Shown here: piece after piece, positions 17,950 to 50,398 of the stretch | Layout of the letters: the number at the start of each line of letters is the position of its first letter | How positions within the stretch are numbered: the stretch's first letter is position 1 | The notes under the pieces: model-generated | Seen by the model: only the letters and a program-made list of their open reading frames with translations | Databases searched by the model: none | Told to the model about the DNA's origin: nothing | Program-made: the position numbers and the translations under genes | Assembly (NCBI RefSeq): GCF_031085375.1 | Contig: NZ_JAVCWF010000001.1 | Span: 1,922,001-1,986,000 of the forward strand | Direction: 5' to 3' | DNA length: 64,000 nt | DNA from: Lactiplantibacillus brownii | Lineage (GTDB): Bacteria; Bacillota; Bacilli; Lactobacillales; Lactobacillaceae

Positions 17950-18153
17950 ATAAGTCATTAATTGTCCGTCTCCGTGGACCTGCACGTTCGCTGTGAGGCA
18001 GACCTGCAGCCAAAAAGCGGTCTGCAGGGCGTTTTCAAGCCGAAGTTCACGTCTTAAAAGTCGGCCAAACACTAACCTGGGTAAAACCGCCCAGCTAAGT
18101 GTCTCGACACGGCAAACGTGCAAGTCCACTCCGACGTTAAATAGTGATTGTAA
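17950..18153 (+). repeat. Composite repeat copy A, module 2 (about 200 bp, hairpin-rich)
   Basis: Shares a continuous alignment with 49980-50183 (same orientation) and 34250-34449 (opposite orientation). Landmarks: the left end CCGTCTCCGT, a CTGCAG hairpin (CCTGCAG ... CTGCAGG), the segment ACGTCTTAAAAGTCGGCC, the hairpin ACACTAACCTGGG ... CCCAGCTAAGTGT, and the right end GTCCACTCCGACGTT. Left and right ends are imperfect inverted repeats. No coding capacity is credible. It lies between folC and valS. Confidence 0.85.
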
Positions 18154-18213
18154 CCTAGGCAATAATAAAGTCAGGACCTAACAAAAACCCGATTAAAATC
18201 AGAATCACTTATT

Positions 18214-18368
18214 AGCGCAGGGCGGGCTGGATGATGCTCAGTGGTGAAATTTTTCTTTGCTGGTGGGCTTTTCCAGCTTAGAAAAAGCCCGGCTTGTGAG
18301 ACCGTACTTTGGCTCACGAACGTGGCCACCACGTTCCAGCATCAATCCAGACCAACCGGAGCGGCAAA
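18214..18368 (+). repeat. Composite repeat copy A, module 1 (about 155 bp, cloverleaf-like)
   Basis: Matches 50250-50398 (same orientation) and 28467-28622 and 34027-34185 (opposite). It runs from AGCGCAGGGCGGGCTGG to CCAACCGGAGCGG. The ends pair with each other, and two internal hairpins follow (TTTTTCT...AGAAAAA enclosing CTGG...CCAG; TTGTGAG...CTCAC). The pairing supports a folded DNA or RNA element. The next 230 bp up to the valS terminator show nothing I can identify. Confidence 0.85.
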
Positions 18369-18606
18369 TCAAGCGGACACTCATAATTCTGAACGCGACA
18401 CCGCACTTAGCACTTACACCGTTAAACTTTTTAAATTCATCAAACCAAACTGTATTCGTTTTTAACCTAGTGTACGAACTTAATTTTAAGTCGTTTCAAT
18501 CAAGAGCCATTGATAGTCAAAACGTGCGATAAAATGTTGCGACCGCTGCCAACTATGCCGTCTTTTATCACACGTTAATAGTTTAACCTTTTTCAGCGTC
18601 AACGAC

Positions 18607-18645
18607 AAAAAAGTCTACCAAACCAACTGAGGTTCGATAGACTTT
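18607..18645 (-). terminator. Rho-independent terminator after valS
   Basis: Stem AAAGTCTA-C-AAC paired with GTT-GATAGACTTT, followed on the minus strand by a T run, 10 bases after the valS stop. Confidence 0.8.
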
Positions 18646-18654
18646 CTTGTTGAA

Positions 18655-21324
18655 TTAAGCTTGCGCTTTAATATCGATCAAACGTTGCTTTGTGGCAGCA
18701 AGTTTATTTTCATTATCAGCGAGCTTTTCTTTTTCACTAGCCACAACCGCTTCAGGCGCATTCGCAACAAAGCGTTCGTTGCCTAATTTCTTAGTGGCAC
18801 GCGTGACTTCACTTTCAAAGGTGGCTTGTTCCTTTTCAAGCTTTTTAATTTCTTCATTCAAATCAACCAATTCAGCTAGCGGAATATAAAGTTCGGCATC
18901 ACTGATCACTTGTGTCATGGCTAATTTTGGTGCTTCCACATCCGCGCCAATCGTTAACGTCTTAGGATGTGCAAACCGGTCAATATAATCTTCGTTAGTC
19001 TTGAAGACCGTCTGCAACCGGGTGCTATCCGTCTTGATCAACAAATCAACCGCAGATGACATCTTTGCGTTGGCCTCAGCCCGAATACTCCGAACCGCCG
19101 TGATCAATTCAATCAAGGACGCCATATCACTTTCGGCAGCCTGATTATCAAATTCAGCGTGTGCCACTGGATAGTCGGCCACAACTAATGATTTACCAAC
19201 ATGTGGCATCGATAACCAGATTTTTTCAGTGACAAATGGCATGATTGGATGAAGTAAACGTAAGGTTTGATCCAAAACGTAGGCCAAAACATTTTGCGTA
19301 TTGGCTTTAGCTTGAGCATCGTCACCGGTTAAAACGGCTTTACTCATTTCAATGTACCAGTCACAAAAATCATTCCAGATAAAGTTATACAAGGCCCGAC
19401 CAGCTTCACCAAAATCAAATTTTTCAAAGCAATCAGTCACTTGTTTAACCGTCGCATTCAAACGGCTCAAAATCCATTTGTCAGCTAGTGTCCAGTCAGC
19501 TTGTGCCGGTAAAGTTGGCTTGTCCATATCACCCAAGTTCATGATGACATAACGACTGGCATTCCAAATCTTATTGATAAAGTTCCAAGCGGCGTCCATT
19601 TTTGTATAACTGAAACGGACATCTTGACCCGCTGTGGACCCATTTGACAAGAACCAACGTAAGGCATCGGCACCGTATTTCTTGATAACATCCATTGGGT
19701 CAATCCCGTTACCTAAGGACTTGCTCATCTTACGACCTTGTTCATCACGAATTAAGCCATGCAACAAGACGTTCTTAAATGGGCGACGACCAGTAAATTC
19801 AAGGCTTTGGAACATCATCCGTGAAACCCAGAAGAAGATAATATCGTAACCGGTGACTAACGTATTGGTTGGGAAGTATCGCTTAAAGTCAGGGGCATCT
19901 TCATCTGGCCAACCCATTGTTGAAAATGGCCATAAGGCACTTGAGAACCAAGTATCTAAAACATCTGGATCTTGTTCCCAGTTTTCAATATCCTTAGGTG
20001 GCTCAACATCAACATAGGTTTCCCCAGTCTTTTTATTGTACCAAGCTGGAATTTGATGACCCCACCAAAGTTGACGTGAGATGACCCAGTCATGAACATT
20101 TTCCATCCATTGATTGAAGGTTTCTTCAAAACGTTCTGGTACGAAATTGACTTTATCGTCGCCTTTTTGGTTCTTCAAGGCTTGTTCCGCTAGCGGTTGC
20201 ATCTTAACGAACCATTGCGTCGACAAGCGTGCTTCAACTTGGACCCCAGTCCGTTCAGAATGCCCAACACTATGCACGATTGGATCAATCTTGATCATCA
20301 AGTCTTGGTCTTGTAAATCCTTAACCATGGCTTTACGTGCAGCAAAACGATCTAAGCCTTCATATTTACCAGCATTGGCATTCATTGAAGCATCTTCATT
20401 CATTGTGTTGATGCGTTTCAAGTCATGACGGTTACCAACTTTGAAGTCATTAGGGTCATGGGCTGGCGTAATTTTAACCATCCCAGTCCCAAATTCAGGA
20501 TCAACGTAAGCATCCGCGATAATCGGAATCTTTCGTTCAGCCAATGGCAGGATAACTTCTTTGCCAACGAGTTCCTTATAACGATCATCGCTAGGATTAA
20601 CGGCAACCGCCGTATCACCCATCATCGTTTCAGGACGGGTCGTGGCAATTTCAATATAATGCTTGCCATTGAACGTATAATTTTTGTCAGCGAATGGATA
20701 TTTGACGTGGTAAAAGGCACCCTTATCATCTTTATGGATAACTTCAATATCGGATAAAGCCGTCCGCGCTTGTGGGTCCCAGTTGATGATGTATTCGCCA
20801 CGATAAATTAAGCCTTTTTTATAAAGCGTGACAAAGACTTTCTTAACTGCATCAGACAACCCTTTATCCATCGTAAATCGTTCACGTGAATAATCTAAAG
20901 ACAAGCCCATTTTGGCCCATTGTTGTTTGATGATTGACGCATATTCGTCTTTCCAATCCCAAACTTGTTGGATGAATTTTTCACGACCTAAATCGTAACG
21001 ACTGATGCCTTGTTCACGAAGCTTAGCTTCAACCTTGGCTTGGGTTGCGATACCGGCATGATCCATCCCTGGTAACCAGAGCGTATCAAAGCCTTGCATC
21101 CGTTTTTGACGAATGATGATATCTTGTAGTGTCGTATCCCAAGCATGGCCTAAATGCAACTTACCTGTGACATTTGGCGGGGGCAAAACGATTGAATAAG
21201 GCTTAGCTTTTTTATTGCCCGAAGGCTTGAATAGATCTTCGTCCAACCAAGTTTGATACCGACCCTTTTCAACGGCGGTCGGATCATACTTTGTGGGCAT
21301 ATCAGTGGTTAAATCTTCTGACAT
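18655..21324 (-). CDS. valS: Valyl-tRNA synthetase
   Basis: Class I aminoacyl-tRNA synthetase charging tRNA-Val. The 889-residue protein has the HIGH-type motif in [15 protein letters not shown], the CP1 editing region, and KMSKS ([14 protein letters not shown]). It ends with a coiled-coil tRNA-binding arm ([17 protein letters not shown] region). ATG 21324 has AAAGGA. It is expressed from a T-box leader with a valine GTA specifier, so its mRNA rises when tRNA-Val is uncharged. Confidence 0.98.
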
Positions 21325-21351
21325 ATCGGTACGTCCTTTCTATTTTTGGCA

Positions 21352-21733
21352 CGAAAAAAGTCCACCCATCCTAAATTAATTAGGACGAATAGACTTCGCG
21401 GTACCACCTAAATTTAAAGAGCGTTATTAGCGACGCTCAGCCACCGAGCATTGCCCAGCTAATCACAGCATGCGTTTTTGGCATGTTGTGACTAGCGTAG
21501 CAAGCACAGGTTGCTGTCGCTAATAGCGCGTTTCGGCAATTTAGCTTCGCCGCGCTACTCTTCACACTTAAACATTATTGTTAACGAACGGTGTATCCGT
21601 CCGGTCGACCCTACTACTATTTCAGGCCAACAGCTCGCAAGCTACTTTCATTCAAACTGACAACGAAAACTTACAGCCCCGTTTTCTTTCTGCAGATGTC
21701 ACTCAAAACTACTCTCTTGCTCATCGCTTGAAT
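21352..21733 (-). promoter_or_regulatory. T-box leader of valS, Val specifier (GTA)
   Basis: The minus-strand leader starts with Stem I: GCAAG-AG-AGTAG on the 5' side and GAAA-GTA-G-CTTGC on the 3' side. GTA (21643-21645) is therefore the specifier, matching the gene. The T-box core GGTGGTACCGCG (about 21397-21408) and a terminator (21354-21397, ending in six T) follow. The leader is long (about 380 bases) because a cruciform-like insert (21421-21529) sits before the antiterminator. Confidence 0.93.
21421..21529. repeat. Palindromic insert within the valS T-box leader
   Basis: Outer arms 21421-21434 and 21516-21529 pair over 14 bp with one mismatch (TATTAGCGAC/GTCGCTAATA core). Inside them a second stem pairs 21458-21473 with 21481-21496 (16 bp, two wobbles). 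This fold is not part of the T-box core as I know it. It may be an expanded Stem II/III or an inserted palindromic element. No second copy was seen in the window. Confidence 0.7.
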
Positions 21734-21739
21734 GTTCCT

Positions 21740-21768
21740 ATTGTAATCAATTTATAATCCGGCGTCAA
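21740..21768 (-). promoter_or_regulatory. valS promoter
   Basis: Minus strand: TTGACG (21763-21768), 17-bp spacer, TACAAT (21740-21745). The -35 starts 3 bp past the tpx stop codon. Confidence 0.75.
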
Positions 21769-21771
21769 TGC

Positions 21772-22266
21772 TTATTCAAATTGCTTCAACGCATCTAAAG
21801 CGGCCACGTAGTTTGGTTCATGCGTCATTTCAGGCACGATTTCGTGGTAAACCACTTTACCGGCAGCATCAACGACATAAATGGCCCGAGCTAACGTCCC
21901 ATTGTTTGGCAAGTATAAGTTAGTGGCATAGCCAAAGGAAAGTTCTTCATCGGAAACGACCGTCAAATTTTTGACGCCTTCCTTGGCACACCAGCCAGCC
22001 TGATCCGCAATCGAATTGTTAGAAACCGCCAAAAATTGAATATGTGGATATTGGTCGGCTTGTTGATTGAACTTTTTCGTTTGAATTGAGCAAACCCGAG
22101 TATCAATATCGGGCATCACACTAATCAACGCGGGCTTGCCTAAAATATCTTTGGTCTTGAGTTTCTTATCATGGGTCGTGAACACTTTGAACTTCGGCAA
22201 TTGGTCGCCATCCGTCAACGGTTCACCGACTAAATCTAACGGCTGATCATGAAATAATACTTGCAC
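21772..22266 (-). CDS. tpx: Thiol peroxidase (atypical 2-Cys peroxiredoxin, Tpx)
   Basis: Reduces hydrogen peroxide and organic peroxides using thioredoxin. The peroxidatic cysteine lies in SVMPDIDTRVCSIQT and the resolving cysteine in AGWCAKEGVKNL, the Tpx spacing. I choose the GTG at 22266, giving MQVLFHDQPLDL and 164 residues: GAAGGGG lies 8 bases upstream, while the GTG at 22275 falls on that site. It stands alone between the valS promoter and a 300-bp gap that holds the thiI terminator and a small palindrome (22306-22320). Confidence 0.93.
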   Translation of the reverse strand: MQVLFHDQPLDLVGEPLTDGDQLPKFKVFTTHDKKLKTKDILGKPALISVMPDIDTRVCSIQTKKFNQQADQYPHIQFLAVSNNSIADQAGWCAKEGVKNLTVVSDEELSFGYATNLYLPNNGTLARAIYVVDAAGKVVYHEIVPEMTHEPNYVAALDALKQFE

Positions 22267-22305
22267 AGCAAACACCCCTTCAATAACTTGATTAAGCTAA
22301 CGTTT

Positions 22306-22320
22306 ACTAGTTTAACTAGT
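22306..22320. promoter_or_regulatory. Palindrome in the tpx upstream region
   Basis: ACTAGTTTAACTAGT is a 6-bp inverted repeat with a 3-base centre, 40 bases before the tpx start. It lies inside the spacer of a possible weak promoter (TTGAAG, 17 bp, TAAACG). It could be an operator; no regulator is identifiable. Confidence 0.3.
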
Positions 22321-22466
22321 ATGCTTCAAATGTACCGCAAACTCCCGCCAGTCGCAAATAATAACTTTAGAATCGCCTCGATTTATCAAAACAACTGGAT
22401 ACTGATTAACCGTCTGCTTTTGCCGCCAGCGATTTGAGCGCTGAGCATGATTTTAAAATACGTTGT

Positions 22467-22506
22467 AAAAAAAACTCGTGTCAGCGAATGTGCTAACACG
22501 AGTTTG
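22467..22506 (-). terminator. Rho-independent terminator after thiI
   Basis: Stem AAACTCGTGT-AGC with GCT-ACACGAGTTT, one internal mismatch, 6-base loop, followed on the minus strand by eight T. It lies 67 bases past the thiI stop. Confidence 0.85.
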
Positions 22507-22572
22507 ATTGAGCGATAGTCATTTTTCAACACGCAACTTGTTTAGTTTGGTGCTTAATCGCATGCTGGTCGC

Positions 22573-23790
22573 TTACAATAGTTCTGCAAAGACTTCTTCT
22601 TGAGTGTTCATATAATTCTCGCCGGGCTTGATTTCAGTAATCTTAATCCCGTCCATGGCACGTTGCATTAATCCTTCCACGTCGATTCGTTCTTCGTAAG
22701 CACGAGAACGATCGAGTTTTGGATGTGTTTTAGGTGCTGGCGGCGCGAAAATTGTACAACAATCTTCGAATGGCATGATTGACAAGTTGTAGGTGTCAAT
22801 CTCTTCAGCAATCTTGATAATCTCGGTTTTATCCATTGAGATCACCGGCCGTAAAACTGGCAAAGCAGTGACGTCATTAATGGCAATCATACTATCCATC
22901 GTTTGTGACGCAACTTGTCCTAAAGATTCACCGTTAAAAATGGCTTTACCATGACGTTGGCGGGTCACAGCATCCATCAAGCGCATCATCAAACGGCGTT
23001 GTACCGTCATCAAATAGCCTTCTGGCACCTTTTCTTTGATTTCTTCTTGAATCTCGGTGAAAGGAATCTGAATGAATTTAACACTTCCAGAATAGCTCGC
23101 TAAAGTCGAGGCTAATTGTTTCGCCTTGGCGAGGGCCTGTTCACTAGTATATGGCGGACTGAAGAAATGAACCATTTCCATGTCAACGCCACGCTTCATG
23201 CCAAGATAACCCGCAACGGGCGAGTCAATCCCACCAGATAACATCAACATCCCTTTACCAGCGGTACCAACGGGTAATCCGCCAGCGCCTTGGATTGTCT
23301 CGGATGATAAGAAAATCCCGTTTGGACGAACTTCGACACGGATCACAATATCTGGTTGCTTCATTTTAACTTGGATGCCGTCAACGTGGTCCAAAATCTG
23401 ACCACCTAACATATCATTGATGGCATTCGTATCGTATTCAAAAGTATGATCAGAACGACGCGTATTTACTTTAAACGTCATCCCCGGTTCAAATTGTGCT
23501 TGAACCATTTCAATCGCCGTCTGATAAACTGCGGCCATATCCTGTGGCACCCGGATACTTGGTGAGAAGTTTTGAATTCCGAAAACCAATTTTAGCCGTC
23601 CCATGACCTTGGTGGCATCTTCACCGTTTAAGGCGATGTGCATCCGGTCACGATCCGCATGAACTTTGAGTTCCGGAAAATCGTGCAGCGCTTTGCGGAC
23701 GTTACGCCCTAAACTATCGATAAAATTACGTTTGTTTTTACCCTTAGTTGAGAGTTCGCCGTAACGCACCATTATTTCAGTGTATTGCAT
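22573..23790 (-). CDS. thiI: tRNA 4-thiouridine synthase ThiI
   Basis: ThiI adenylates U8 of tRNA and transfers sulfur to form 4-thiouridine; in some bacteria it also feeds thiamine thiazole synthesis. The 405-residue protein has an N-terminal ferredoxin-like/THUMP part (about 1-165) and the PP-loop [11 protein letters not shown]. It lacks the C-terminal rhodanese domain of the E. coli enzyme, as usual in Gram-positives; those rely on a dedicated cysteine desulfurase, here the adjacent upstream gene. ATG 23790 has GAAAGGA. It lies 17 bp after the desulfurase. Confidence 0.95.
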
Positions 23791-23807
23791 GAATTATTTC
23801 CTTTCAG

Positions 23808-24962
23808 TTAAGCGTCAGCATTTATTTTAGAAAATCGTTTATATAACTTATCAAAAACTTGATTAAACTCGTCAGCTTCGGCCAAAGTGTTGTGTTCATC
23901 CAAACTAATTCGAATGGCACTCGTGGCGACTGCTTCAGGGGTATGCATCGCCATTAATGTGCTGGAAGCCAGATGCTTCTTGGAAGAACAAGCACTCGTC
24001 GTTGAGAGATAAATGCCCTGATCTTCAAACGCATGGACGATGGTCTCACCACGAACCCCATTGATCGTAAAACACAAGATATGTGGCGCAAAACCAGTCG
24101 TCGGCTGACTAAAAATCGTGACTTTTGGAAAAGTTTTAATGTGATCATAAACGCGTTGCTTGATTGCGCGTTCACGAGCGACCTTTTCAGTCTCATCAGT
24201 CAATAACAATCGTAAGGCTTTCGCCATACCAGCGATTGCTGGTAAGTTTTCAGTCCCAGAACGCCAGTTGTTTTCTTGACCACCACCGGTCATTAATGGG
24301 GCTAATTTTCGACCTTGGCGCGCGTAAATGAAGCCAATACCGCGTGGCGCATGGAATTTGTGCCCGGAGAAGGTCACAAAATCCACCCGATCATTCATGA
24401 TCATGTCTTGGATGCCCTTACCGATCCCTTGAACAGCATCAATGTGGAAGTGAATTTTCGGATAAGCCTTCAATACCTCGGCCACTTCTGTCAATGGTTG
24501 AATCGTGCCAATTTCATTGTTGACCGCCATGACCGAAACCAAAATGGTGTCTGGCCGAATCGCGGCTTTCAAATCAGCGATTGAAATCCGGCCTTCTTTA
24601 TCAACGGGTAAGTAAGTCACGTCAAAGCCGAGCTCTTTGAGTTGTTCCATTGAATTATGAATAGCTGGATGTTCAACAGCCGTTGTAATCAGATGTTTCC
24701 CAAATGTCCGTTTTTCCATGGCTGTCCCTTTGACGACCCAATTGTCGCCTTCCGTACCGCCAGAAGTAAAAAAGATTTCATTAGGTTTCGCACCAATTAA
24801 ATCCGCAATTTGTTGGCGTGATTGTTCCAATAAATGGAACGCCGTCTCACCAAAATTATGCAAACTAGATGGGTTGCCCCAAACTTGTTGTGAGACTTTT
24901 GTGTAGGTCTCAAGTACTGATGGTGCAACTTTAGTTGTCGCACTATTGTCAAAATAAATCAT
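23808..24962 (-). CDS. Cysteine desulfurase (NifS/IscS-like, ThiI partner)
   Basis: A PLP enzyme that removes sulfur from cysteine as a protein persulfide. At 384 residues it has the N-terminal IYFDNSATTKVAPSV motif, the PLP lysine in FSGHKFHAPRGIGF and the active-site cysteine loop TSACSSKKHLAS. The fixed pairing with thiI (17-bp gap) matches Bacillus NifZ, which supplies ThiI for s4U. Iron-sulfur or thiamine roles are possible but not indicated. ATG 24962 follows GAAGG at 7 bases. Confidence 0.93.
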   Translation of the reverse strand: MIYFDNSATTKVAPSVLETYTKVSQQVWGNPSSLHNFGETAFHLLEQSRQQIADLIGAKPNEIFFTSGGTEGDNWVVKGTAMEKRTFGKHLITTAVEHPAIHNSMEQLKELGFDVTYLPVDKEGRISIADLKAAIRPDTILVSVMAVNNEIGTIQPLTEVAEVLKAYPKIHFHIDAVQGIGKGIQDMIMNDRVDFVTFSGHKFHAPRGIGFIYARQGRKLAPLMTGGGQENNWRSGTENLPAIAGMAKALRLLLTDETEKVARERAIKQRVYDHIKTFPKVTIFSQPTTGFAPHILCFTINGVRGETIVHAFEDQGIYLSTTSACSSKKHLASSTLMAMHTPEAVATSAIRISLDEHNTLAEADEFNQVFDKLYKRFSKINADA

Positions 24963-25030
24963 TCTAAAGCCTTCACTTTCCCTAAAAGTCGTGCTGGAAA
25001 CATTGGAGCTGTCATAAGTGTTAACTTGCC

Positions 25031-25070
25031 ACTCGAGTTGGCTAGATTACTGCCGGAACGTGGTAGCCAA
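25031..25070 (-). repeat. Probable decayed end of composite-repeat module 1
   Basis: The stretch ACTCGAGTTGGC ... GGAACGTGGTAGCCA resembles the outer end of module 1 (GCTCCGGTTGGC ... GGAACGTGGTGGCTA at 28471-28512) with a one-base length difference. The rest of the module is not recognisable. It sits in the 288-bp gap between the desulfurase and ezrA genes, which holds nothing else except the ezrA terminator. Confidence 0.35.
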
Positions 25071-25214
25071 CAGAGACAACCGATTATCAATTGAACTAAC
25101 TATGACTAGAACAACGCCTAAGCACTTACTTTCGATAAGAATTCTTTGCAATTATACCAAATAACCACTATGAAACAAGCCTTTTTGTTTCACAACACCC
25201 AAAATAGGCGAACA

Positions 25215-25240
25215 AAAAAGTTTGGGAATTCCCAAACTTT
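25215..25240 (-). terminator. Rho-independent terminator after ezrA
   Basis: A fully symmetrical stem AAAGTTTGGGAATTCCCAAA continuing to CTTT, followed on the minus strand by six T, 10 bases after the ezrA stop. Confidence 0.85.
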
Positions 25241-25250
25241 CAGTGGTCAG

Positions 25251-26960: not shown

Positions 26961-27002
26961 ATGAATACCCCTTACTTAAATTAAATTAATGGCTAATGGT
27001 TT

Positions 27003-27033: not shown

Positions 27034-27071
27034 TTGCTTTTTGCTTAATTTCCAATTAAAATCTAACCTAA

Positions 27072-27077: not shown

Positions 27078-27131
27078 GCATACCCGCAATTATCAATCAG
27101 TATGAAATTAATAACTTATAGGAGGATTTTC

Positions 27132-28466: not shown

Positions 28467-28622
28467 TTGCCGCTCCGGTTGGCCTGGACTGATGTTGGAA
28501 CGTGGTGGCTACGTTTGTGAGCCAAGGGGCAGTCTCACAAGCCGGGCTTTCTCTAAGCTGGCAAGACCCCAGCAAAGAGAAATTTCACCACTGAGCCTCA
28601 TTCCAGACCAACCTACGCTAAC
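28467..28622 (-). repeat. Composite repeat copy B, module 1
   Basis: Reverse-oriented copy matching 18214-18368, 34027-34185 and 50250-50398. Its inner hairpin arms are TTTCTCT and AGAGAAA around CTGG and CCAG. It begins 20 bp after the rpsD terminator in the gap between rpsD and the convergent DUF1054 gene. Confidence 0.85.
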
Positions 28623-28664
28623 CCAGCGCCTCAATATTGATTGGGTTTTCGGGATATTAAGAGC

Positions 28665-28734
28665 CATAATCACTATCTAACATCGTAATGAACCAGTGGC
28701 TGCACAGCGAATGAACTGGTCAATGAAGACGGCG
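28665..28734 (-). repeat. Composite repeat copy B, module 2 with internal deletion
   Basis: Only about 70 bp remain. The left part (ACTATCTAACATCGTAATG, AACCAGT) matches one end of module 2 and the right part (GAACTGGTCAATGAAGACGG) matches the other; about 130 central bases are missing. The two ends still pair (ACCAGT/ACTGGT). Confidence 0.65.
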
Positions 28735-33976: not shown

Positions 33977-34026
33977 GTTGACTGTAATCACGACCTAATG
34001 CCTCCATTGATATTGATTGGCATAGC

Positions 34027-34185
34027 TTACCGCTCCGGTTGGTCTGGATTAATGCTGGAACGTGGTGGCCACGTTTGTGAGCCAAAGAGCGGTCTCACAA
34101 GCCGGGCTTTTCCTAAGCTGGAAAGTTCACCAGCAAAGGAAAATTTCACCACTGAGCATCATCCAGCCCGCCCTGCGCTAGTCGG
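34027..34185 (-). repeat. Composite repeat copy C, module 1
   Basis: Reverse-oriented copy of 18214-18368. Inner hairpin arms here are TTTTCCT and AGGAAAA around CTGG and CCAG, differing from the other copies in a paired manner. It starts about 50 bp after the terminator of the 6S candidate. Confidence 0.85.
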
Positions 34186-34249
34186 TAACTAACCCAATAT
34201 CAATTAACTTTTTTGTGGGAACTAAGATTAATGATACTTTGATTACAAC

Positions 34250-34449
34250 TACTATCTGACGTCGGAGTGGACCAGTATGTTCACCGTGTTAAGACACTTA
34301 GCTGGGGGATTCTCCCAGGTTAGTGTCTGGCCGACTTTTAAGACGTGGGTTTCGGCTTGAAAGCGCACTGCAGACCGAATTTTGGCTGCAGGTCTGCCCC
34401 CACGGTGAACGTGCTGGTCAACGGAGACGGACAATTAATCAGTTATTTA
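34250..34449 (-). repeat. Composite repeat copy C, module 2
   Basis: Reverse-oriented copy of 17950-18153 and 49980-50183, with the conserved GACACTTAGCTGGG ... CCCAGGTTAGTGTC hairpin and the CTGCAG pair. Order and spacing to module 1 mirror copies A and D, so the two modules travel together. Confidence 0.85.
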
Positions 34450-34537
34450 AATAGAAACACTATGATACACTAACTACAGACCGACAACTGTCCTTTTATT
34501 AAAAAACAATCTAAAAAATTCTCATGGAGGAATCAAC

Positions 34538-41380: not shown

Positions 41381-41399
41381 AACTAACTTCCTTCCAAAA

Positions 41400-42374: not shown

Positions 42375-42590
42375 AATAACCTCGATTGCTCAGTTTATCC
42401 TTTATTTTAGCATGATTGGCGGGGTTTGCACATTGGTTACACGTTAATTTAAGCCGCCACTCATCTACTTTTAAGAGACTAGTCGTGATTGTAAAGATTT
42501 GACCTCGAGACCAGTGGTAATTGCGCTGGGACGTTTACACGAACAGGTCGACTCATAAATTAGTCCTGAACCACTTAATTTTAGGTAATT

Positions 42591-42626
42591 AAAAAGCCGT
42601 CCAACGTGACTTCTCGTTGCAACGAC
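42591..42626 (-). terminator. Terminator after hicD
   Basis: GTCGTTGCAACG pairs with CGTTGGACGGC, then five T on the minus strand. The remaining 42375-42590 gap has no gene; a 16-base stretch (42539-42554) resembles an end of repeat module 2 but is too short to call. Confidence 0.75.
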
Positions 42627-42678
42627 TTTTCAGTAGTAAAGGCAATACGACTTAATATCATCGAAAAAGCTTAACCAT

Positions 42679-43602
42679 CTATTTTTCAGCTTGTGGTAAA
42701 ACATCAACTTTAGATTTGATGAACTTCGCAGATGATGCTAATGACGCCTGTTCATCTGACGTCAAGTTCAGATGGATTAAGGCTTCAACCCCATCCTTGC
42801 CGATTACTGCGGGCATGCCCACGTAAGTCCCAAAATCAGGATCAAAGGCCGAAACTGGGCAAGCTAGTTTTTCATCCGCACTCACCGCTTCTGCCAGACG
42901 AACGCCACAGGTCGCAATCGCAAAGTTTGTGTAGTGTTTCCCTTCCATGACCGCAAATGCCCCTTGGCGTGCATCTTCTTCAAGTTGCTTTAAATCTAAG
43001 TCCTTGAAGTTAGCGATTGGTTGCCCATTGACCGCCACCGTTGACCAAGCTACGAATTGAGAATTACCATGTTCCCCATAAACGTAGCCCGCCACGTTTT
43101 TACCATTGGTCTGTAAAGCTTGACCAACATACTTTTGCATCCGGGCCGTATCTAAGAACGTGCCCGTCCCAAAGACCCGGTTACGGTCAAAACCTGTCAT
43201 CCGTTGTAAATAGTCAGTCATGACATCACAAGGATTCATAATATCGATCAGGATTCCTTTGAAACCAGAAGCCACGATTTTAGGCGCAATATCCCGCACG
43301 ATTGCTTGATTTGAGTCATACTCACCAAACCGACCCTTCGAACTGTTCATGTCGATCGCGCCAATATTCCCAGAAGCCACAATTAGAACTTCCGCATCCG
43401 CTAAAGCGGCATAGTCGTTGATCACAATTTTAGTCGTCGACCCTAATCGCGGTGACGCGTCATCTAAATCTAGCTTTTGTGCTTGTGCTAACTTTTCGTT
43501 ATGATCAATCAAAACTAATTCATCAACGGTTCCATGTTGAACCAAAGTATAGGCAACCGTTGCCCCAACTTGACCTAAACCAATAACACCATATTTACGC
43601 AT
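42679..43602 (-). CDS. hicD: L-2-hydroxyisocaproate dehydrogenase (LDH/MDH family)
   Basis: NAD-dependent reduction of branched 2-oxo acids to L-2-hydroxy acids. 307 residues; Rossmann motif GLGQVG (8-13), catalytic His in YGEHGNSQF (His178) and the Asp-Arg relay. The substrate-side sequences differ from lactate dehydrogenase: IMNPCDVMTDYLQ instead of the LDH type, and GEHGNSQF instead of GEHGDSEF. These are features of L-HicDH. ATG 43602 after GGAG. Monocistronic with its own terminator. A lactate dehydrogenase role cannot be fully excluded. Confidence 0.85.
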   Translation of the reverse strand: MRKYGVIGLGQVGATVAYTLVQHGTVDELVLIDHNEKLAQAQKLDLDDASPRLGSTTKIVINDYAALADAEVLIVASGNIGAIDMNSSKGRFGEYDSNQAIVRDIAPKIVASGFKGILIDIMNPCDVMTDYLQRMTGFDRNRVFGTGTFLDTARMQKYVGQALQTNGKNVAGYVYGEHGNSQFVAWSTVAVNGQPIANFKDLDLKQLEEDARQGAFAVMEGKHYTNFAIATCGVRLAEAVSADEKLACPVSAFDPDFGTYVGMPAVIGKDGVEALIHLNLTSDEQASLASSAKFIKSKVDVLPQAEK

Positions 43603-43702
43603 TATGCTAACTCCATTCTGTAAAATATTTAACTAAAGTTAGCGTACCTTGCAAGGGCTTTAAAGTCAAGCAGGGCGCAGTCTCATGTGTTTTTAATGTC
43701 AT

Positions 43703-43735
43703 CAAAAAAGCCGGCCATTTTCAGACCGACTTTTC
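43703..43735 (-). terminator. Terminator after metQ
   Basis: AAAGTCGG/CCGGCTTT stem with a run of six T on the minus strand, 7 bases after the metQ stop. Confidence 0.78.
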
Positions 43736-43741
43736 ATTGAC

Positions 43742-44575
43742 TTAATTGGTTGAGGCCACCGGTAAAATGGCACCCTTATAATGTTTCTTGATCCAGCTTT
43801 GCGTACTCTTTGAGCGTAACGCCTTCATCAACTTCTTGATTGCAGGCTTGTTCTTGTCACCCTTCCGAACAGCCACAATGTTGGCATATGGTGAATCGGA
43901 TTTTTCAAGCGCAATGGCATCTTTCCGTGGATCTAAACCAGCTTGAACCGCATAGTTGGCGTTAATAACGACGGCATCACCTTCGTTATTCTTGTAAAAT
44001 TGTGGCATTAATTTAGCTTCGTACGAATGCTTGAAGACTAAGTGTTTCTTGTTCGTCGCAATATCGTTGAAGTTGGCAGACGTGATGTCCGTCCCCTTTT
44101 TCAAGGTGATCAACCCGGCATCCTTAAAGAGTGTCAGTACCCGACCATAGTCCGCCACGTTGCTGCTTACTAAGACGGTCGCGCCCTCTTTAAGATTCTT
44201 AAGGTTTTTGACCTTTTTCGAAAAGACCCCAATTGGTTCCAAATGGACAGTGCCCGCTGAAACTAGCGTCCCATTATTTTCTTTATTCCAGTTATCTAAG
44301 AATGGCACGTGTTGGAAATAGTTGGCATCCAATTCTTTAGAAGCCAACGCTTTGTTTGGTAACACGTAGTCTTGGAAGACTTTAATCTTTAAATTGACGC
44401 CTTCCTTTTTCAATTCTGGTTGAATATGCTTCAAGATTTGTGCATGTGGCACCGCTGAAGCCCCCACCGTAATCGTGGTCGTCTTTGATGATGACGACGA
44501 TGACTTACCACAACCAACTAACAGAAATGCCGTTGCGGCAATCGCTAATAACCCTAAAATTCGCTTTTTTTGCAT
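43742..44575 (-). CDS. metQ: Methionine-binding lipoprotein MetQ
   Basis: Substrate-binding lipoprotein of the NlpA family. N-terminal lipobox LVGC (Cys about residue 22) after a hydrophobic stretch; mature part with VGASAVPHAQIL, LDANYFQHVPFLDNW and VVINANYAVQAGLDP, all family landmarks. I choose ATG 44575 (MQKKRILG): AGGAGG lies 8 bases upstream, whereas the in-frame codon at 44596 precedes that site. 277 residues. Last gene of metN-metI-metQ under a Met T-box. Confidence 0.94.
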   Translation of the reverse strand: MQKKRILGLLAIAATAFLLVGCGKSSSSSSKTTTITVGASAVPHAQILKHIQPELKKEGVNLKIKVFQDYVLPNKALASKELDANYFQHVPFLDNWNKENNGTLVSAGTVHLEPIGVFSKKVKNLKNLKEGATVLVSSNVADYGRVLTLFKDAGLITLKKGTDITSANFNDIATNKKHLVFKHSYEAKLMPQFYKNNEGDAVVINANYAVQAGLDPRKDAIALEKSDSPYANIVAVRKGDKNKPAIKKLMKALRSKSTQSWIKKHYKGAILPVASTN

Positions 44576-44631
44576 GCTGAATTTCCTCCTAATCAAATTG
44601 TTAAACCCTTTTTAATAATCCCTTAAAACCA

Positions 44632-45324
44632 TTAATTAACGCGTTTATCGATATGCTTGACCGCAAAATCCCCGATAAATTGGAAAATGAAAACGATAAT
44701 GACGATAATCACCGTTGCAACTAAAGTGATCGCATTGTTATTGGATTGGAACCCATCTTGATACGCTAAGTTACCAAGACCCCCAGCCCCAATCGCCCCA
44801 GCCATGGCTGTATACCCAATCAATGAGATCGTCGTGACGGTGATACCGGAAACCAGCGCTGGTAAACTTTCTGGTAACAAGACTTTTCGAATGATTTGCC
44901 AACGCGTTGCACCCATTGATTCAGCCGCTTCCACGACGCCGTGATCAAGTTCATGAAAAGCCAACTCAACCATCCGCGCATAGAATGGTGCGGCAGAAAT
45001 AATCAATGAGGGCAATGCCGCGCGTGGCCCAATAATCGTGCCGACAATACTTTGGGTAACTGGCAATAATAAGACGATTAAGATGATAAATGGAATCGAC
45101 CGGAAAACGTTGACAAACAACGCGACGACCCAATTTAACAACTTGGCCAATGGATTTTGACTGTTGGTGGTTTCAAATAATAGCAACCCCAAGGCAATCC
45201 CTAAAATTGCCACCACAATCATTGAAACAAGCGTCAACCAAATCGTTTCCCAGGTCGAGCTCCACATATTGCCCCAATCGACATTTGAAAATTTGAAATA
45301 TGAGCCTAACCCTTGACTATTCAC
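44632..45324 (-). CDS. metI: Methionine ABC transporter permease MetI
   Basis: A 230-residue permease with five hydrophobic helices and the EAA motif segment [23 protein letters not shown] 45324 start, overlapping the metN stop by 8 bases, with GGAGG inside metN. This coupling and gene order identify it as MetI. Confidence 0.94.
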
Positions 45325-46348
45325 GATTTAAAACCTCCGTTTCAACCCGCATCTTTTGTAAATAAGCTAATGCGCCATCAATTTGATCCTGGTCCCCACT
45401 GATTTGGATATACAACGACCCAATGGCGCCTTCTTGCGTTTGATGAATGGCACCCTCAATAATGTTCAAGTCTAACGTGTATTGCTTCAACATTTCTGAA
45501 ACAATCGGCAGTTGTGCTTGGTCGCCGTGGAAGGTCAACTGAACGATGGTCCCTTTCGGATACTTTGCCAATAACTGATCAACGACCGCCGTCGTTTCGT
45601 TCAAGGATGGCGTGACTTCTTCATTAACGAAGCGTTTCGTTACGGCTTGTTTAGGCCGCTTGAAGACTTCTAAGACAGGCCCCTGTTCAACGATTTTACC
45701 ATCTTCCATGACCGCCACATGATCCGCAATCTTACGAATCACGTGCATTTCATGGGTGATCAACACAATCGTCAAATTCAACTTTTTATTAATATCGAGT
45801 AACAAATCAAGGACTTCATCCGTCGTTTGCGGATCTAGCGCACTCGTCGCTTCATCAGATAACAAGATTTGCGGATCATTGGCTAAGGCTCTGGCAATCC
45901 CGACCCGTTGCTTTTGCCCACCAGAGAGTTCTGAAGGATAAGCAGTTTCGCGGCCGGAGAGACCAACTAACTCAGCCAAATGTTCAGCTTTCTTTTTAGC
46001 CTCGGCTTTGCTGTTACCCGCAATTTCTAATGGAAACATGATATTTTGCAACACCGTTCGTGACCACAATAAGTTAAAATGTTGGAAAATCATCCCAATT
46101 TTGTGGCGCTGCTCACGAAGCTTGGCACCAGCTAGCGCGGAAATTTCAACGCCATCAATGTCAACCGACCCACTAGTGGGCGTTTCCAGCCCATTCAACA
46201 TGCGAATCAAGGTACTCTTCCCTGCCCCAGAATAACCAACGATTCCGTAGATATGGCCGTCTTCAATTTTTAAGTTCACATCTTGGACCGCATGCACGGT
46301 GCCTTGTTTACTAGCAAACGTTTTGGTCACGTCTTTAAATTCAATCAA
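45317..46348 (-). CDS. metN: Methionine ABC transporter ATP-binding protein MetN
   Basis: 343 residues: ABC ATPase (Walker [10 protein letters not shown], signature LSGGQKQR, Walker [14 protein letters not shown]) plus a C-terminal NIL/ACT-like domain (about 265-343). In E. coli MetN this domain binds methionine and inhibits transport. Start TTG 46348 with AAGGAGG 8 bases upstream. First gene after the Met T-box. Confidence 0.95.
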
Positions 46349-46427
46349 GTTGCTTCCTCCTTATGCCGATAAATTGGTTCAGACCAATTAAATTAATCAT
46401 TTATCAATCTCAATTACTTTGCAAACA

Positions 46428-46733
46428 AAAAAGCTTCTCATCCGATCAATTATGATTGACATCATAACCAATAGGACGAGAAGCTTAGTCTCGTGGTACC
46501 ACCCATCTTTGCAGCCTGCTCACGCAAACTGTCTCAAGAGTTATTGCTAACTCGGCACGATAATGGGTGCAATCCAAACTTGGCTAACCAAAGCTCACCA
46601 AATTGCATTGATTCAAGACCATCTTCCGCTTCACGCCTAATCTCATTACACCAACCTGAGACTCTCTTAGTAGTCGTTACCGCGTACTCATCTTTTCAAA
46701 ATGACATTTTTCTAATGATTTATTAATGTCCTG
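46428..46733 (-). promoter_or_regulatory. T-box leader of metNIQ, Met specifier (ATG)
   Basis: Minus-strand leader with AGTA on the 5' side of Stem I and GAAG-ATG-G-TCTT on the 3' side; ATG (46620-46622) is the specifier. The T-box core GGGTGGTACCACGAG lies at about 46491-46506. A long terminator hairpin (46428-46484) ends in a T run just before metN. This ties transporter expression to uncharged tRNA-Met and supports methionine as substrate. Confidence 0.93.
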
Positions 46734-46762
46734 AGTATACCGAGGACGGATTCGCTTGTCAA
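46734..46762 (-). promoter_or_regulatory. metNIQ promoter
   Basis: Minus strand: TTGACA (46757-46762), 17-bp spacer, TATACT (46734-46739); near-consensus. It starts 10 bp after the gcvH-like stop. Confidence 0.85.
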
Positions 46763-46771
46763 CCCCGAAAA

Positions 46772-47080
46772 TTAATCGACGTCGATCAACCAAGCGACAC
46801 CATCTTCTAAACTGTTCAAAGCCGTAAAGTCAGCTTTCAATGCTGGATTAACGGCCGTAACGGTCCCGTTAATTGGGCAATTAAATTCTGAAACGGCTTT
46901 CGTTGCTTCAATACTAAGGAAAGCTTCTTTTTGGCTGACCTTGTCACCAACGGCTGGTAACTCAGCATACTTCACTTCACCTAAGGCTTCGTGAGCGGCT
47001 TTCGTTAAACCAATTCGCGTATGACCGTCAGTATCTTTCGTCCAAAAATAATTTGCATCTTCACTCATCTTCAACACCAT
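46772..47080 (-). CDS. GcvH-like lipoyl-domain protein, orphan
   Basis: A 102-residue single lipoyl domain. The lipoylation lysine is K61 in LSIEATKAVSEF, and the N-terminal half (YFWTKDTDGHTRIGLTKAAHEALGEV, by ends YFWTKD and ALGEV) is GcvH-like. No glycine cleavage T or P genes are nearby. Orphan GcvH proteins serve as lipoate carriers in lipoyl-relay pathways in other Firmicutes, which may apply here (inference). ATG 47080 follows AAGGAAAG; an ATG four codons later is possible. It lies 20 bp after rodA. Confidence 0.85.
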   Translation of the reverse strand: MVLKMSEDANYFWTKDTDGHTRIGLTKAAHEALGEVKYAELPAVGDKVSQKEAFLSIEATKAVSEFNCPINGTVTAVNPALKADFTALNSLEDGVAWLIDVD

Positions 47081-47100
47081 GCTTTCCTTAATTTAATTCC

Positions 47101-48306
47101 TTATTCAAACCGGTCGTTACGACTAAACATGTATGACTTGTAATGGAACCGCATCGACATGATCAGCCCAATTCCGGCCATGTTCGCAATCAACGCCGAA
47201 CCCCCTTGACTAATAAACGGCAAAGGAATCCCAGTCATTGGGAGCAAACCGATACTCATCCCAACATTTTCAAAGACATGGAATAAGATCATCATAATAA
47301 CACCCGTTGAGATGTAAGCATAAAACTCATTTTTCGTATTAAAGGTCACACGGATCATTTGATAGATTAACAAGAAATATAATAAAACTACAATGGTACA
47401 GCCGATAAAACCGAAGTTTTCACCAATCACGGAGAAAATCATATCGGATTCACGTACCGGTACTGTAACGTGTGACACATTGAAGCCCCGGCCAGTAATT
47501 TGGCCAGAACCAATGGCTTTCATACTTTGCCAAACTTGATACGCGTTGTTGGACGTATCAGTGGATGGGTTTAACCAAGTATCGATCCGGGCAAATTGAT
47601 AAGCCTTAAACCCGACCGCTTCCAACACATGACGCCCACTGGTTGTAATAACCAAGTAGAGCACCGTTCCAGCAAACGCAAACACAATGGCAAAGGCTGG
47701 TGCGAGTAACCGCCAAGAGATCCCTGAAACTAAAATGACCCCACCTAAAATGGCAAAGAAGACTAACATCGTCCCAAAGTCATTTTGGAGCTTTAGTAAG
47801 ATCACCAACGGTACCGTATAAGCAATTAGTTTACCAATTAATTGCCAATCACCGGCCGGCGTATGCGTTGGATTCTCAGTATTGTGCATCGTGACGACCC
47901 GACCTAACATCAAAATGAAGGCTGGCTTCATAATTTCTGACGGTTGGAAAGTCAATGAACCAACTGCAAACCAACTTTTGGCCCCAGTACTTGCATACAT
48001 CGTTCGACTATACAAGACTAAGACCGCCACTAGGAGGAAGATCCCGAACCAATAAGCTAGCGGAGCCACCCGCCAAAGCTGTTCGGAGTCAAACTGCATA
48101 ATAATGACTGCTAACGTCGTCCCGATCACAAACCACATCACTTGCGAAATAACCTGCTTCGTCACGTTGACCACACTTGAATCATGACTGGCAGCGACAT
48201 AAATTGAGGCCAGCCCAATCAAGCCCAGCATCATGACGGAGAAGATAATTCCCCAGTCAATCCGTGATTCTTCTGCTTGACCACGAAGTCTAGATTCTTC
48301 TGCCAC
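47101..48306 (-). CDS. rodA: Rod-shape SEDS glycosyltransferase RodA (FtsW/RodA/SpoVE)
   Basis: RodA is a membrane peptidoglycan polymerase of the elongasome. About ten hydrophobic segments, with the SEDS signatures QNDFGTMLVFF and the C-terminal GMSIGLLPMTGIPLPFISQGG region (by ends). I choose GTG 48306 as start (MAEESRLRGQ): AAGGAG is 10 bases upstream, and the upstream in-frame TTG at 48354 lies in the -10-like region. 401 residues. It follows mbl-yidD-DUF2969 on the same strand. Confidence 0.94.
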   Translation of the reverse strand: MAEESRLRGQAEESRIDWGIIFSVMMLGLIGLASIYVAASHDSSVVNVTKQVISQVMWFVIGTTLAVIIMQFDSEQLWRVAPLAYWFGIFLLVAVLVLYSRTMYASTGAKSWFAVGSLTFQPSEIMKPAFILMLGRVVTMHNTENPTHTPAGDWQLIGKLIAYTVPLVILLKLQNDFGTMLVFFAILGGVILVSGISWRLLAPAFAIVFAFAGTVLYLVITTSGRHVLEAVGFKAYQFARIDTWLNPSTDTSNNAYQVWQSMKAIGSGQITGRGFNVSHVTVPVRESDMIFSVIGENFGFIGCTIVVLLYFLLIYQMIRVTFNTKNEFYAYISTGVIMMILFHVFENVGMSIGLLPMTGIPLPFISQGGSALIANMAGIGLIMSMRFHYKSYMFSRNDRFE

Positions 48307-48352
48307 AGTAATAACGCTCCTTATTTTTCTAAGATAAGCTTGATTATACAAC

Positions 48353-48382
48353 AACCTGGTGCCGAATAAACGGAACCAGGTT
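48353..48382 (-). other. Hairpin between DUF2969 gene and rodA
   Basis: AACCTGGT/ACCAGGTT, perfect 8-bp stem, 14-base loop, followed by a TATAAT-like -10 (48343-48348) rather than a T run. It may be a weak attenuator or a processing site; the rodA promoter lacks a clear -35. Confidence 0.35.
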
Positions 48383-48398
48383 GAAGGTTAACCAAAAA

Positions 48399-48626
48399 TT
48401 AGCCTTTATGCAAGTGGTACGCTGAAAGGACTTCTTGCAAACTTTCATCAAATGATTTGGTGTGTGCAAATGGTTGCACATCACTAGACAGTTCCGCATC
48501 AAAGCGATCGCCGTCTTGCATCACTTGACCGATCACTTGTTTCCCAATCAAAACTTCGGTGACCGTTTGATCGTTCACTTTAGTTTCGTTAAGTGTCACT
48601 GAAATGGCTTTATCTTTTTTTGACAA
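48399..48626 (-). CDS. DUF2969 family protein
   Basis: A small 75-residue cytosolic protein of a lactobacillus/enterococcus family without known function. Recognised by MSKKDKxIxVxLNExxVNxxxVxExxIGKxxIGQ-like beginning. It lies between yidD and rodA; one base separates it from yidD's stop, so the unit mbl-yidD-DUF2969-(rodA) is one operon. A role in elongation is possible only by context. Confidence 0.78.
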   Translation of the reverse strand: MSKKDKAISVTLNETKVNDQTVTEVLIGKQVIGQVMQDGDRFDAELSSDVQPFAHTKSFDESLQEVLSAYHLHKG

Positions 48627-48887
48627 TTACTTTTCCTCCTTAAAGGCCGGATTGCGACGTAATGAAAATTTCGCTGGTACCGGATCAAAGCCGCCTTTGA
48701 CAAATGGTTGACAGCGTAAAACACGAGCCAGCCCCATCAGGCCACCACGAGCCGCACCAAAGCGCTCAACCGCTTCAATCGTATAAGTCGAGCAAGTCGG
48801 CCAATAACGGCAATGCGCCGGCGAAAAGGTGGATATGGCCCGTTGATACCAACGAATACTACTAATTAAAACGTGTTTCATCGCCAA
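48627..48887 (-). CDS. yidD: Membrane protein insertion efficiency factor YidD
   Basis: An 86-residue protein with the YidD signature: [34 protein letters not shown] (by its ends IRWYQR and EAVERFG), three conserved cysteines, and [17 protein letters not shown]. An amphipathic membrane-associated protein assisting YidC-mediated insertion. ATG 48887 adjoins the mbl stop. Confidence 0.94.
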
Positions 48888-49883
48888 TTATTTTTTAGCA
48901 CTCTTTTGCATGTGTTCCAGTAAGATACCGGCACCTTGCGCCACATTATTCAATGGGTGTTCAGCCACCATCACTGGCACTTTTAAGTTTTCACTAATTA
49001 ATTGATCTAAGCCGCTCAAAAGCGCGCCCCCACCAGTTAACATAATGCCGCGATCAATAATATCGGCAGAAATTTCTGGTGGTAGAGTTTCCATAACATG
49101 ATGAGCAGTCGTCACAATTTGCATCAACGTATCATGAATCGCTACTTCAACTTCATTGGAATCCATGTCAATTGAACGTGGCATCCCAGTGACCGTATCG
49201 CGACCACGAACTTGCATGACTTGATCATCATCGTCATCTTGTTTGAAGACTTGTGCGATCTGAATCTTAACATTTTCCGCGGTCCGTTCACCAATTAGCA
49301 AATGATGCTCATCTTTAACGTAGTTAGCAATGTCTTGGTTCATCCGATCGCCAGCCATCCGTAGTGAGCTGCTAGCAACGATATCGCCTAAAGATAAGAC
49401 GGCAATATCACTAGTCCCACCACCAATATCAATGACCATGTTACCGCGTGGTTGGAAAATATCCATACCAGCACCAATGGCAGCAACTTTAGGTTCGACT
49501 TCCAAATACACCTTGTTACCACCGGACTTTTCAGCCGCCTGTAAGATCGCCTTACGTTCGATTTCCGTGGTGTTCGTTGGCGTACAGATCATAATACTTG
49601 GGCGTGACATAATACCACGCACATTTAATTTTTTAATGAAATAAGACAACATTTCTTCGGTAACATCAAAATCTGAAATTACCCCGTCCTTTAATGGTCG
49701 GATTGCCCGAATGTTACTTGGGGTCTTACCAACCATTTGATAGGCTTCCGACCCGACTGCTAATACTTGATTCGTATTCGTATCAATGGCAACGACGGAT
49801 GGTTCATTTAACACGATGCCCTTCCCGGATACGTAAATCAAAACATTGGCAGTACCTAAGTCGATACCAATATCTAAAGCCAT
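48888..49883 (-). CDS. mbl: MreB paralogue (Mbl-like)
   Basis: Second actin-like protein in the window, 331 residues: [48 protein letters not shown] 49883 has GAGGAG seven bases upstream; the in-frame ATG at 49916 has no such site. B. subtilis has MreB, Mbl and MreBH; the murA-mbl neighbourhood there matches this locus (murA at 51084). Whether it acts as Mbl or MreBH is not decidable here. Confidence 0.93.
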   Translation of the reverse strand: MALDIGIDLGTANVLIYVSGKGIVLNEPSVVAIDTNTNQVLAVGSEAYQMVGKTPSNIRAIRPLKDGVISDFDVTEEMLSYFIKKLNVRGIMSRPSIMICTPTNTTEIERKAILQAAEKSGGNKVYLEVEPKVAAIGAGMDIFQPRGNMVIDIGGGTSDIAVLSLGDIVASSSLRMAGDRMNQDIANYVKDEHHLLIGERTAENVKIQIAQVFKQDDDDDQVMQVRGRDTVTGMPRSIDMDSNEVEVAIHDTLMQIVTTAHHVMETLPPEISADIIDRGIMLTGGGALLSGLDQLISENLKVPVMVAEHPLNNVAQGAGILLEHMQKSAKK

Positions 49884-49979
49884 GTTTTTGCTCCTCTCAA
49901 ACTTGCAGTTATACAACTTATCATTATAGCATACTCATCCCGACCTGCGAACCAGTGTCACGTCGTACTCGTACTTCAA

Positions 49980-50183
49980 ATAACCGATTAATTCGCCGTC
50001 TCCGTTGACCAGCACGTTCGCCTTGGGGCAAACCCTGCAGCCAAAATACGGTCTGCAGGGCGCTTTCAAGCCGCAAACCACGTCTTAAAAGTCGGCCCAG
50101 ACACTAACCTGGGTAAAAATCCCCCAGCTAAGTGTCTCGACACGGTGAACGAACTGGTCCACTCCAACGTCTTAAATAGTGGT
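49980..50183 (+). repeat. Composite repeat copy D, module 2
   Basis: Same orientation as copy A. Visible folds: CCCTGCAG (50033-50040) with CTGCAGGG (50053-50060), and AGACACTAACCTGGG (50099-50113) with CCCAGCTAAGTGTCT (50123-50137). The outer ends pair imperfectly (GACCAGCACGTTC against GAACTGGTC). It fills the region between mbl and the acetyltransferase. Confidence 0.88.
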
Positions 50184-50249
50184 TGCAGATAAAACGTTAA
50201 TAAATTCAATGTAGATAAAAACCAATTTCCTTTAAGTCGAATGATCAGC

Positions 50250-50398
50250 GCAGGGCGGGCTGGATGATGCTCAGTGGTGAAATTTCTCTTGGCTGGTGAA
50301 TTTCCAGCTTAGAGAAAGCCCGGCTTGTGAGACCGCACTTTGGCTCACAAACGTGGCCACCACGTTCCAGCATCAGTCCAGACCAACCGGAGCGACAA
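50250..50398 (+). repeat. Composite repeat copy D, module 1
   Basis: Outer stem: GGGCTGGATGATGCT (50257-50271) with AGCATCAGTCCAGACC (50369-50384), continued by GTGGTG/CACCAC. Inner hairpins: TTTCTCT...CTGG / CCAG...AGAGAAA (50283-50317) and TTGTGAG (50325-50331) / CTCACAA (50344-50350). Together a cloverleaf-like fold of about 130 bases. Confidence 0.88.

Follow-up and report, generated by a model that had tools for sequence, protein, structure and literature searches.

Divergent pairs of one covarying fold make up an abundant, MITE-like intergenic repeat in Lactiplantibacillus

The repeat that occurs four times in a 64-kb stretch of the Lactiplantibacillus brownii genome is probably a small, non-autonomous element of MITE-like anatomy, moved by a transposase that acts in trans. 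The stretch, called the window here, spans 64,000 nucleotides (NCBI RefSeq assembly GCF_031085375.1, contig NZ_JAVCWF010000001.1, positions 1,922,001 to 1,986,000; C1:1922001-1986000). The elements are mostly divergent, back-to-back pairs of homologous folds, and the covariation that supports the fold of one partner, module 1, is very strong. The original prediction had left the choice between a structured RNA or DNA element and a non-autonomous mobile element in two parts; covariation on the one hand, and marks of mobility in sister species and in L. brownii itself on the other, indicate that the repeat is both. The family is apparently very common in lactobacilli and uncatalogued.

Results

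Copies in the window

All four copies (A to D) were recovered where they had first been reported by an unprompted repeat search of the window, as direct and inverted pairs with 71-94% identity over 64-135 nt. A four-way alignment resolved two conserved blocks separated by a less conserved spacer, and R1, a covariance model of module 1, matched every copy, with scores of 138-171 bits and E-values down to 2e-45 (Table 1). The length first given, about 420 bp, was too short, as degenerate terminal inverted repeats, located by eye, lie beyond the ends proposed at that time. Copy B had been called shortened, and in the alignment the inner part of its module 2 is indeed gone. Element A sits between two minus-strand ORFs, at 16575-17894 and 18655-21324.

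Table 1. Coordinates of the elements and modules in the window
Feature	Position	Strand	Evidence
Whole of element A with its degenerate terminal inverted repeats	17917..18410	+	ends by eye
Module 2 of A, fold on minus strand	17968..18132	-	R1 match 18027-18108 (-), 30.6 bits, E 1.6e-6; BLAST
Module 1 of A, three-way-junction fold	18215..18362	+	R1, 169.2 bits
Module 1 of B	28472..28618	-	R1, 138 bits
Spacer and module 2 remnant of B, inner part deleted	28619..28734	- (strand of element)	alignment; no R1 match
Whole of element C with its terminal inverted repeats	33995..34473	-	ends by eye; repeat search
Module 1 of C	34032..34178	-	R1, 166.8 bits
Module 2 of C, fold on plus strand	34265..34428	+	R1 match 34286-34368 (+), 31 bits, E 1.2e-6
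Whole of element D with its terminal inverted repeats	49952..50439	+	ends by eye; L. daoliensis, L. nangangensis and L. pingfangensis without D
Module 2 of D, fold on minus strand	49998..50165	-	R1 match 50055-50143 (-), 28.5 bits, E 6.2e-6
Module 1 of D	50248..50393	+	R1, 170.6 bits; covariation

The fold of module 1 and the strand on which it works

Module 1 is a three-way-junction fold of about 145 nt. A closing stem with an asymmetric internal loop (P1) and a second stem (P2) lead to the junction with hairpins P3 and P4, and the terminal loop of P4 is of the type ACCGNNCUUUGG. In a MAFFT alignment of 40 module-1 sequences from seven genomes, chosen by DNA similarity (A3), the fold has 46 consensus pairs, 27 of which show compensatory changes on both sides. 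Paired cells amount to 98.3% (86.0% in shuffled alignments), and the covariation score of 0.350 compares with 0.113 after shuffling; none of 500 shuffles scored as high, and versions of the fold slid along the alignment reached at most 0.058. A second alignment (A5) holds 148 model-found sequences, 147 of them distinct, from Lactiplantibacillus and one other genus (g16). Being fitted to R1 it leans towards the model, and in it 37 of the 46 pairs are compensated, 96.7% of cells are paired and covariation is 0.500 against 0.158. When A5 was filtered to less than 80% identity, GCUcAG and CGUUCCAGC were nearly invariant in the 30 remaining rows. Folded as RNA, copy D (49980-50398) has a predicted energy of -155.1 kcal/mol (z -7.4).

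Read outward, from the spacer to the end of the element, the 43 pairs common to the folds of both strands contain 40 G-U against 9 A-C combinations in A3. With one mostly-G-U pair omitted throughout, A5 gives 246 against 84 over all rows, 22 against 5 in the 21 rows from loci L155-L168, and 49 against 19 in the 30 non-redundant rows (p 0.0004 on the assumption of independent cells, which does not hold); A5 was itself gathered with a model that favours the outward strand. For the outward strand of module 1 this excess suggests a single-stranded molecule, but does not discriminate between RNA and ssDNA. The evidence for module 2 is ambiguous, its bias being weak: 47 against 20 over 57 sequences, but 4 against 8 in the seven non-redundant rows.

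Module 2 as a partner of module 1

The two modules had been described as unrelated, a view that must be abandoned, as in three of the four window copies module 2 is itself hit by R1, on the opposite strand to module 1 (28.5-31 bits, E 1.2e-6 to 6.2e-6). The same arrangement prevails among 254 R1 hits, where 95 neighbouring modules at most 700 bp apart comprise 89 -/+, five -/-, one +/+ and no +/- pairs; L. brownii contributes 35 -/+ pairs in 47 loci. From the opposite-strand matches and these L. brownii pairs it follows that module 2 is the left-hand version of the module 1 fold, so that one fold is present twice, as a divergent pair. On the left, L. songbeiensis and L. dongliensis often have a module-1 variant; at one locus with a shared right flank, the left partner is module 2 in L. 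songbeiensis (L064) and such a variant in L. dongliensis (L088).

It had also been proposed that the modules always occur together and in the same order, which holds for most copies but not for all. Among 72 module-1 places in fetched L. brownii loci, 56 have module 2 in that order, two have it nearby in another order and 14 lack it, and module 2 was found without module 1 at none of 56 places. This sample is tilted towards pairs, since 40 of its loci came either from BLAST matches to the whole of copy D or from the surroundings of such matches. In a less biased set of 20 places chosen by R1 alone, 12 carry module 2 and eight do not; even here, the modules are found together more often than apart, and the result that was to refute the original prediction, modules that mostly stand alone, did not arise.

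Distribution

In the 3.35-Mb L. brownii genome, copy D has at least 48 BLAST matches (the best 40 of 143 candidates were scored, copies B and C not being among them) and R1 at least 120 (the best 149 of 1189 candidates scored), which excludes chance. R1 matches 19 of 21 Lactiplantibacillus genomes, with at least 100 places in six of the 21 and at least 149 in three of these six. Searches of the family and the order used stricter filters and scored the best seven candidates per genome: 117 of 397 sampled Lactobacillaceae genomes, from 14 of 40 sampled genera, have matches, and in the order sample 25 of 395 genomes do, of which 24 belong to Lactobacillaceae and one, with a weak match (27 bits, E 5e-4), lies outside. 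If this picture is right, few non-coding features of Lactiplantibacillus are as abundant as these elements, which have so far escaped cataloguing.

None of the 4227 Rfam models matched the modules at gathering thresholds, and a relaxed search of five loci (E up to 5) gave four weak, sub-gathering matches, none overlapping a module; a known Rfam family is therefore rejected, and with it the possibility, raised at the outset, that the copies match a repeat in that catalogue. An origin as a plasmid or phage element was discarded in the same manner, copy D having no match in a plasmid or a phage collection. Among the titles and abstract openings listed, mostly of papers other than those behind subscription, none describes the repeat. 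In the accessible text of one paper (PMC2267715), Lactobacillus johnsonii is one of the genomes covered and the word 'plantarum' is missing; in that of another (PMC10969869), no word starts with 'Lactobacill'.

Sequence constraint and gene context

Among 33 L. brownii copies, compared after seven incomplete ones had been left out, mean identity is 0.923 for module 1, 0.888 for module 2 and 0.653 for the spacer, and falls to 0.505 and 0.477 in the two end regions, which are partly unrelated flank. These paralog identities suggest that the modules outlive their ends. Decay of the spacer is unlinked to the identity of module 1. Orthologs speak less clearly. In eight pairs between L. dongliensis and L. 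songbeiensis with both flanks matched, the modules are 0.83-0.99 identical (mean 0.93), with 0.91 for the outer and 0.72 for the inner 60 bp; the modules are barely above the outer 60 bp, so selection in place is not proved by these pairs. Pooling 13 ortholog pairs of the two species gives 0.91 for the modules, 0.78 for the outer and 0.71 for the inner segments.

By a crude ORF finder, 67 elements are intergenic and none lies within a gene; two more are at locus edges. Their neighbouring genes are in tandem in 41 cases, convergent in 15 and divergent in 11, close to the background of 63/14/14, and a preference for 3'-UTRs or convergent genes was rejected on these counts. A promoter scan of three elements gave hits at chance level, one of them inside a spacer (9/12 matches), and no convincing promoter; nor was a convincing terminator found.

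Marks of mobility

Close pairs in L. songbeiensis and L. dongliensis are bounded by a 17-bp inverted repeat, ACGCTTGGTGCTAGTTG, which, allowing up to two mismatches, occurs at 181 and 179 sites in these genomes, respectively (control, 0 and 1). The fetched loci hold 34 bounded elements (20 from L. songbeiensis, 13 from L. dongliensis and one from L. daoliensis), and 12 of the 34 are flanked by perfect duplications of 7 bp (three), 8 bp (four), 9 bp (four) or 12 bp (one). When the left flank of one element was compared with the right flank of another, none of 1122 combinations gave such a duplication. Target-site duplications are thus a property of this subfamily.

In L. brownii the ends carry a different inverted repeat, the pattern of which has 16 sites, 15 at copies and one alone. 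Its elements (15 distinct, 16 entries) show no excess of target duplications over the control, and the case for mobility in this genome accordingly comes from the inverted repeats, from sites at which relatives lack the element and from internal changes that copies have in common. A YTAR duplication is compatible with site D and, judged by eye, with a few copies; not being above control, it was rejected for the window's subfamily.

Site D is empty in L. daoliensis (G001), L. nangangensis (G009) and L. pingfangensis (G013), where the intergenic space measures 152, 35 and 86 bp, respectively, against 520 bp with the element. Where the filled site reads CCAG and CTAA, the junction in L. daoliensis reads CTAG, which makes one compatible empty site. 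Two further L. brownii copies behave similarly: that near C1:1993973 has no counterpart in G001, G009 or G013, and that near C1:2043401 has none in G001 or G009, the stretch fetched from G013 being free of matches. The elements that L. dongliensis (G003) and L. songbeiensis (G017) have at sites A and D are arranged differently, so simple inheritance does not explain whether a site is occupied; at sites A and B, relatives have other, distant structured modules.

The internal changes are of two kinds. An extra hairpin unit of about 120 bp (M3) occupies the same point of module 1 in the seven copies inspected, which are unlinked, and two copies (L053 and L055) share an identical inner deletion of module 2. 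Both are signs of copying. Among the matches listed there was no transposase or autonomous copy. An interval of 3.4 kb in L. songbeiensis, which we had hoped was an autonomous copy, consists of ordinary genes and separate small elements, and nine loci inspected by eye where a contig ends at the repeat show modules, flanks or an IS-like end and no transposase.

Discussion

How the element may work

On the reading that we prefer, each copy is, or descends from, a small non-autonomous transposable element, in which terminal inverted repeats enclose two divergent, homologous modules of about 145-170 nt. In each module, the strand running outward from the spacer adopts a branched, single-stranded fold. 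A transposase would move the element in trans. The outward strand would be active as RNA through read-through from neighbouring genes, a source suggested by the lack of a convincing promoter in the scanned spacers. From the divergent pairing, a transcript across a complete element, in either direction, would be expected to hold one module in its folding sense.

More tentatively, the folded module may act on the stability or processing of the transcript that contains it. Such action would keep the fold under selection while insertions remained tolerable. The available text of a paper on BOX elements (PMC3049150) reports effects of ERIC and Correia elements on co-transcribed RNA and mentions the same proposal for BOX; these would be the nearest model for what the modules do. 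It is conceivable, though we hold it with some doubt, that the elements represent a mobile class which disperses one structured RNA in the form of a divergent pair, in effect an RNA device independent of orientation, with a fold older than the ends and independent of them. If this is true, insertion in either orientation provides any crossing transcript with one correctly folded module. If the present picture is right, harmless laboratory bacteria contain hundreds of natural insertions, including variants that keep and variants that break the fold, and the old question of selection on a MITE-borne fold through transcript effects becomes directly testable.

Other readings

The modules could also belong to purely selfish, long-inverted-repeat elements and be kept alike by gene conversion among copies and not by function. 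That orthologous modules scarcely exceed the outer flank in the eight best pairs, that no orientation bias exists and that the same intergenic sites have different occupants across species all agree with this. However, 37 of the 46 pairs are compensated and loop letters are nearly invariant in two genera, which requires that the fold was at some time under selection and is not the product of conversion alone. A purely selfish origin seems to us rather unlikely. Action of the fold as ssDNA, in which a transposase or replication factor would recognise the 3'-side module on each strand as in REPINs, attC sites or rolling-hairpin ends, seems to us unlikely. G-T is the mildest mismatch in ssDNA too, so the bias of G-U over A-C fits; moreover, owing to the divergent symmetry each strand has its folding module on the 3' side, and the three scanned spacers contained no convincing promoter. 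Yet ssDNA transposition of the IS200/IS605 type is not known to give 7-12 bp target duplications with inverted repeats, as seen here, and the occurrence of one fold with two different end sequences argues that it is not tied to recognition of a single end.

Two different inverted-repeat chassis carrying the same fold would also be expected if the modules were a divergent pair of small-RNA genes, with a cell function of their own, travelling as cargo of different MITEs. The nearly invariant junction letters in two genera, and modules that outlive the end sequences in L. brownii, are in keeping with this. It is nevertheless an improbable account: a convincing promoter or terminator was not found in the three elements scanned, module 2 is missing beside module 1 at 14 of 72 places (eight of 20 in the set chosen by R1 alone), and at least 100 redundant copies per genome are hard to reconcile with a gene. 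Repeats of chromosome architecture, BIME-like sites for gyrase or a nucleoid protein, would account for chromosome-wide spread, inverted pairing and presence in any gene context, but binding to duplex DNA has no need of long branched folds or of the strand bias of module 1, which makes such a role very improbable.

Relation to known repeats

BIMEs and REPINs are inverted pairs of REP sequences, each REP unit being a short, single hairpin that a RAYT mobilises. The repeat resembles them in its inverted pairs of a foldable unit, its dispersal between genes and its mosaic composition; it differs in having units that are three-way junctions of about 145 nt, inverted repeats and duplications of 7-12 bp.

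BOX of Streptococcus pneumoniae is described, in the accessible part of its account, as modular (boxA, boxB and boxC), present in many copies, mostly intergenic, predicted to fold when transcribed and thought to consist of MITEs (PMC3049150), and the available text of a second paper has BOX, RUP and SPRITE inserting into one another in the pneumococcus (PMC10969869). On that description the lactobacilli repeat is alike in being modular, multicopy, mostly intergenic, predicted to fold and MITE-like; it is set apart in that BOX is one fold with an optional middle unit, whereas here two homologous folds diverge. The host of BOX also belongs to a different family of bacteria.

The traits of a MITE, as given in the consulted part of the same account, are terminal inverted repeats, target-site duplication, a highly base-paired secondary structure and A+T-richness (PMC3049150). 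Terminal inverted repeats are present in L. brownii (15 of 16 sites at copies) and in the sister species (181 and 179 sites); target-site duplications are found in the latter (12 of 34 elements) and are not demonstrable for the window's own subfamily; and the folding energy of copy D and the covariation both indicate a highly base-paired structure. MITEs also share their ends with an autonomous insertion sequence of the host; among the matches listed here no autonomous copy appeared, and the one long interval inspected contained ordinary genes. The elements are not A+T-rich, as A, B, C and D have a G+C content of 0.47-0.51 against 0.442 for the window, and for this reason we write 'MITE-like' and let the claim of a transposon rest on the ends and the duplications. 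Like the MITEs Correia, ERIC and bcr1, the repeat is small and apparently non-coding, with inverted repeats, duplications (in one subfamily) and no transposase. Unlike them, it has in each half a covarying, multi-branched fold that is common to two different ends, and its R1 matches span 14 of the 40 Lactobacillaceae genera sampled.

Structured modules in and around module 1

The hairpin unit M3 (about 120 bp) was located at 11 places in or near module 1, the three-way-junction fold of the dispersed repeat. In loci L029, L030, L033, L036, L037, L042 and L046, it lies within the loop of P3, one of the two junction hairpins. M3-like units are also present on their own at site C, the intergenic site of copy C, in L. 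nangangensis and L. pingfangensis.

At the intergenic site of copy A (site A), other species carry different modules, also structured but with no more than a distant likeness to module 1 (L099, L100, L101 and L109); these occupants suggest both a larger superfamily and that site A is a hot spot.

In L. songbeiensis, modules at two contig ends (L349 and L350; first ~100 bases) are broken by one and the same IS-like end.

Other, ordinary structured RNAs in the window (Rfam search)
Feature	Position	Strand
T-box leader	11451-11682	-
T-box leader	21378-21733	-
PyrR site	61516-61628	-
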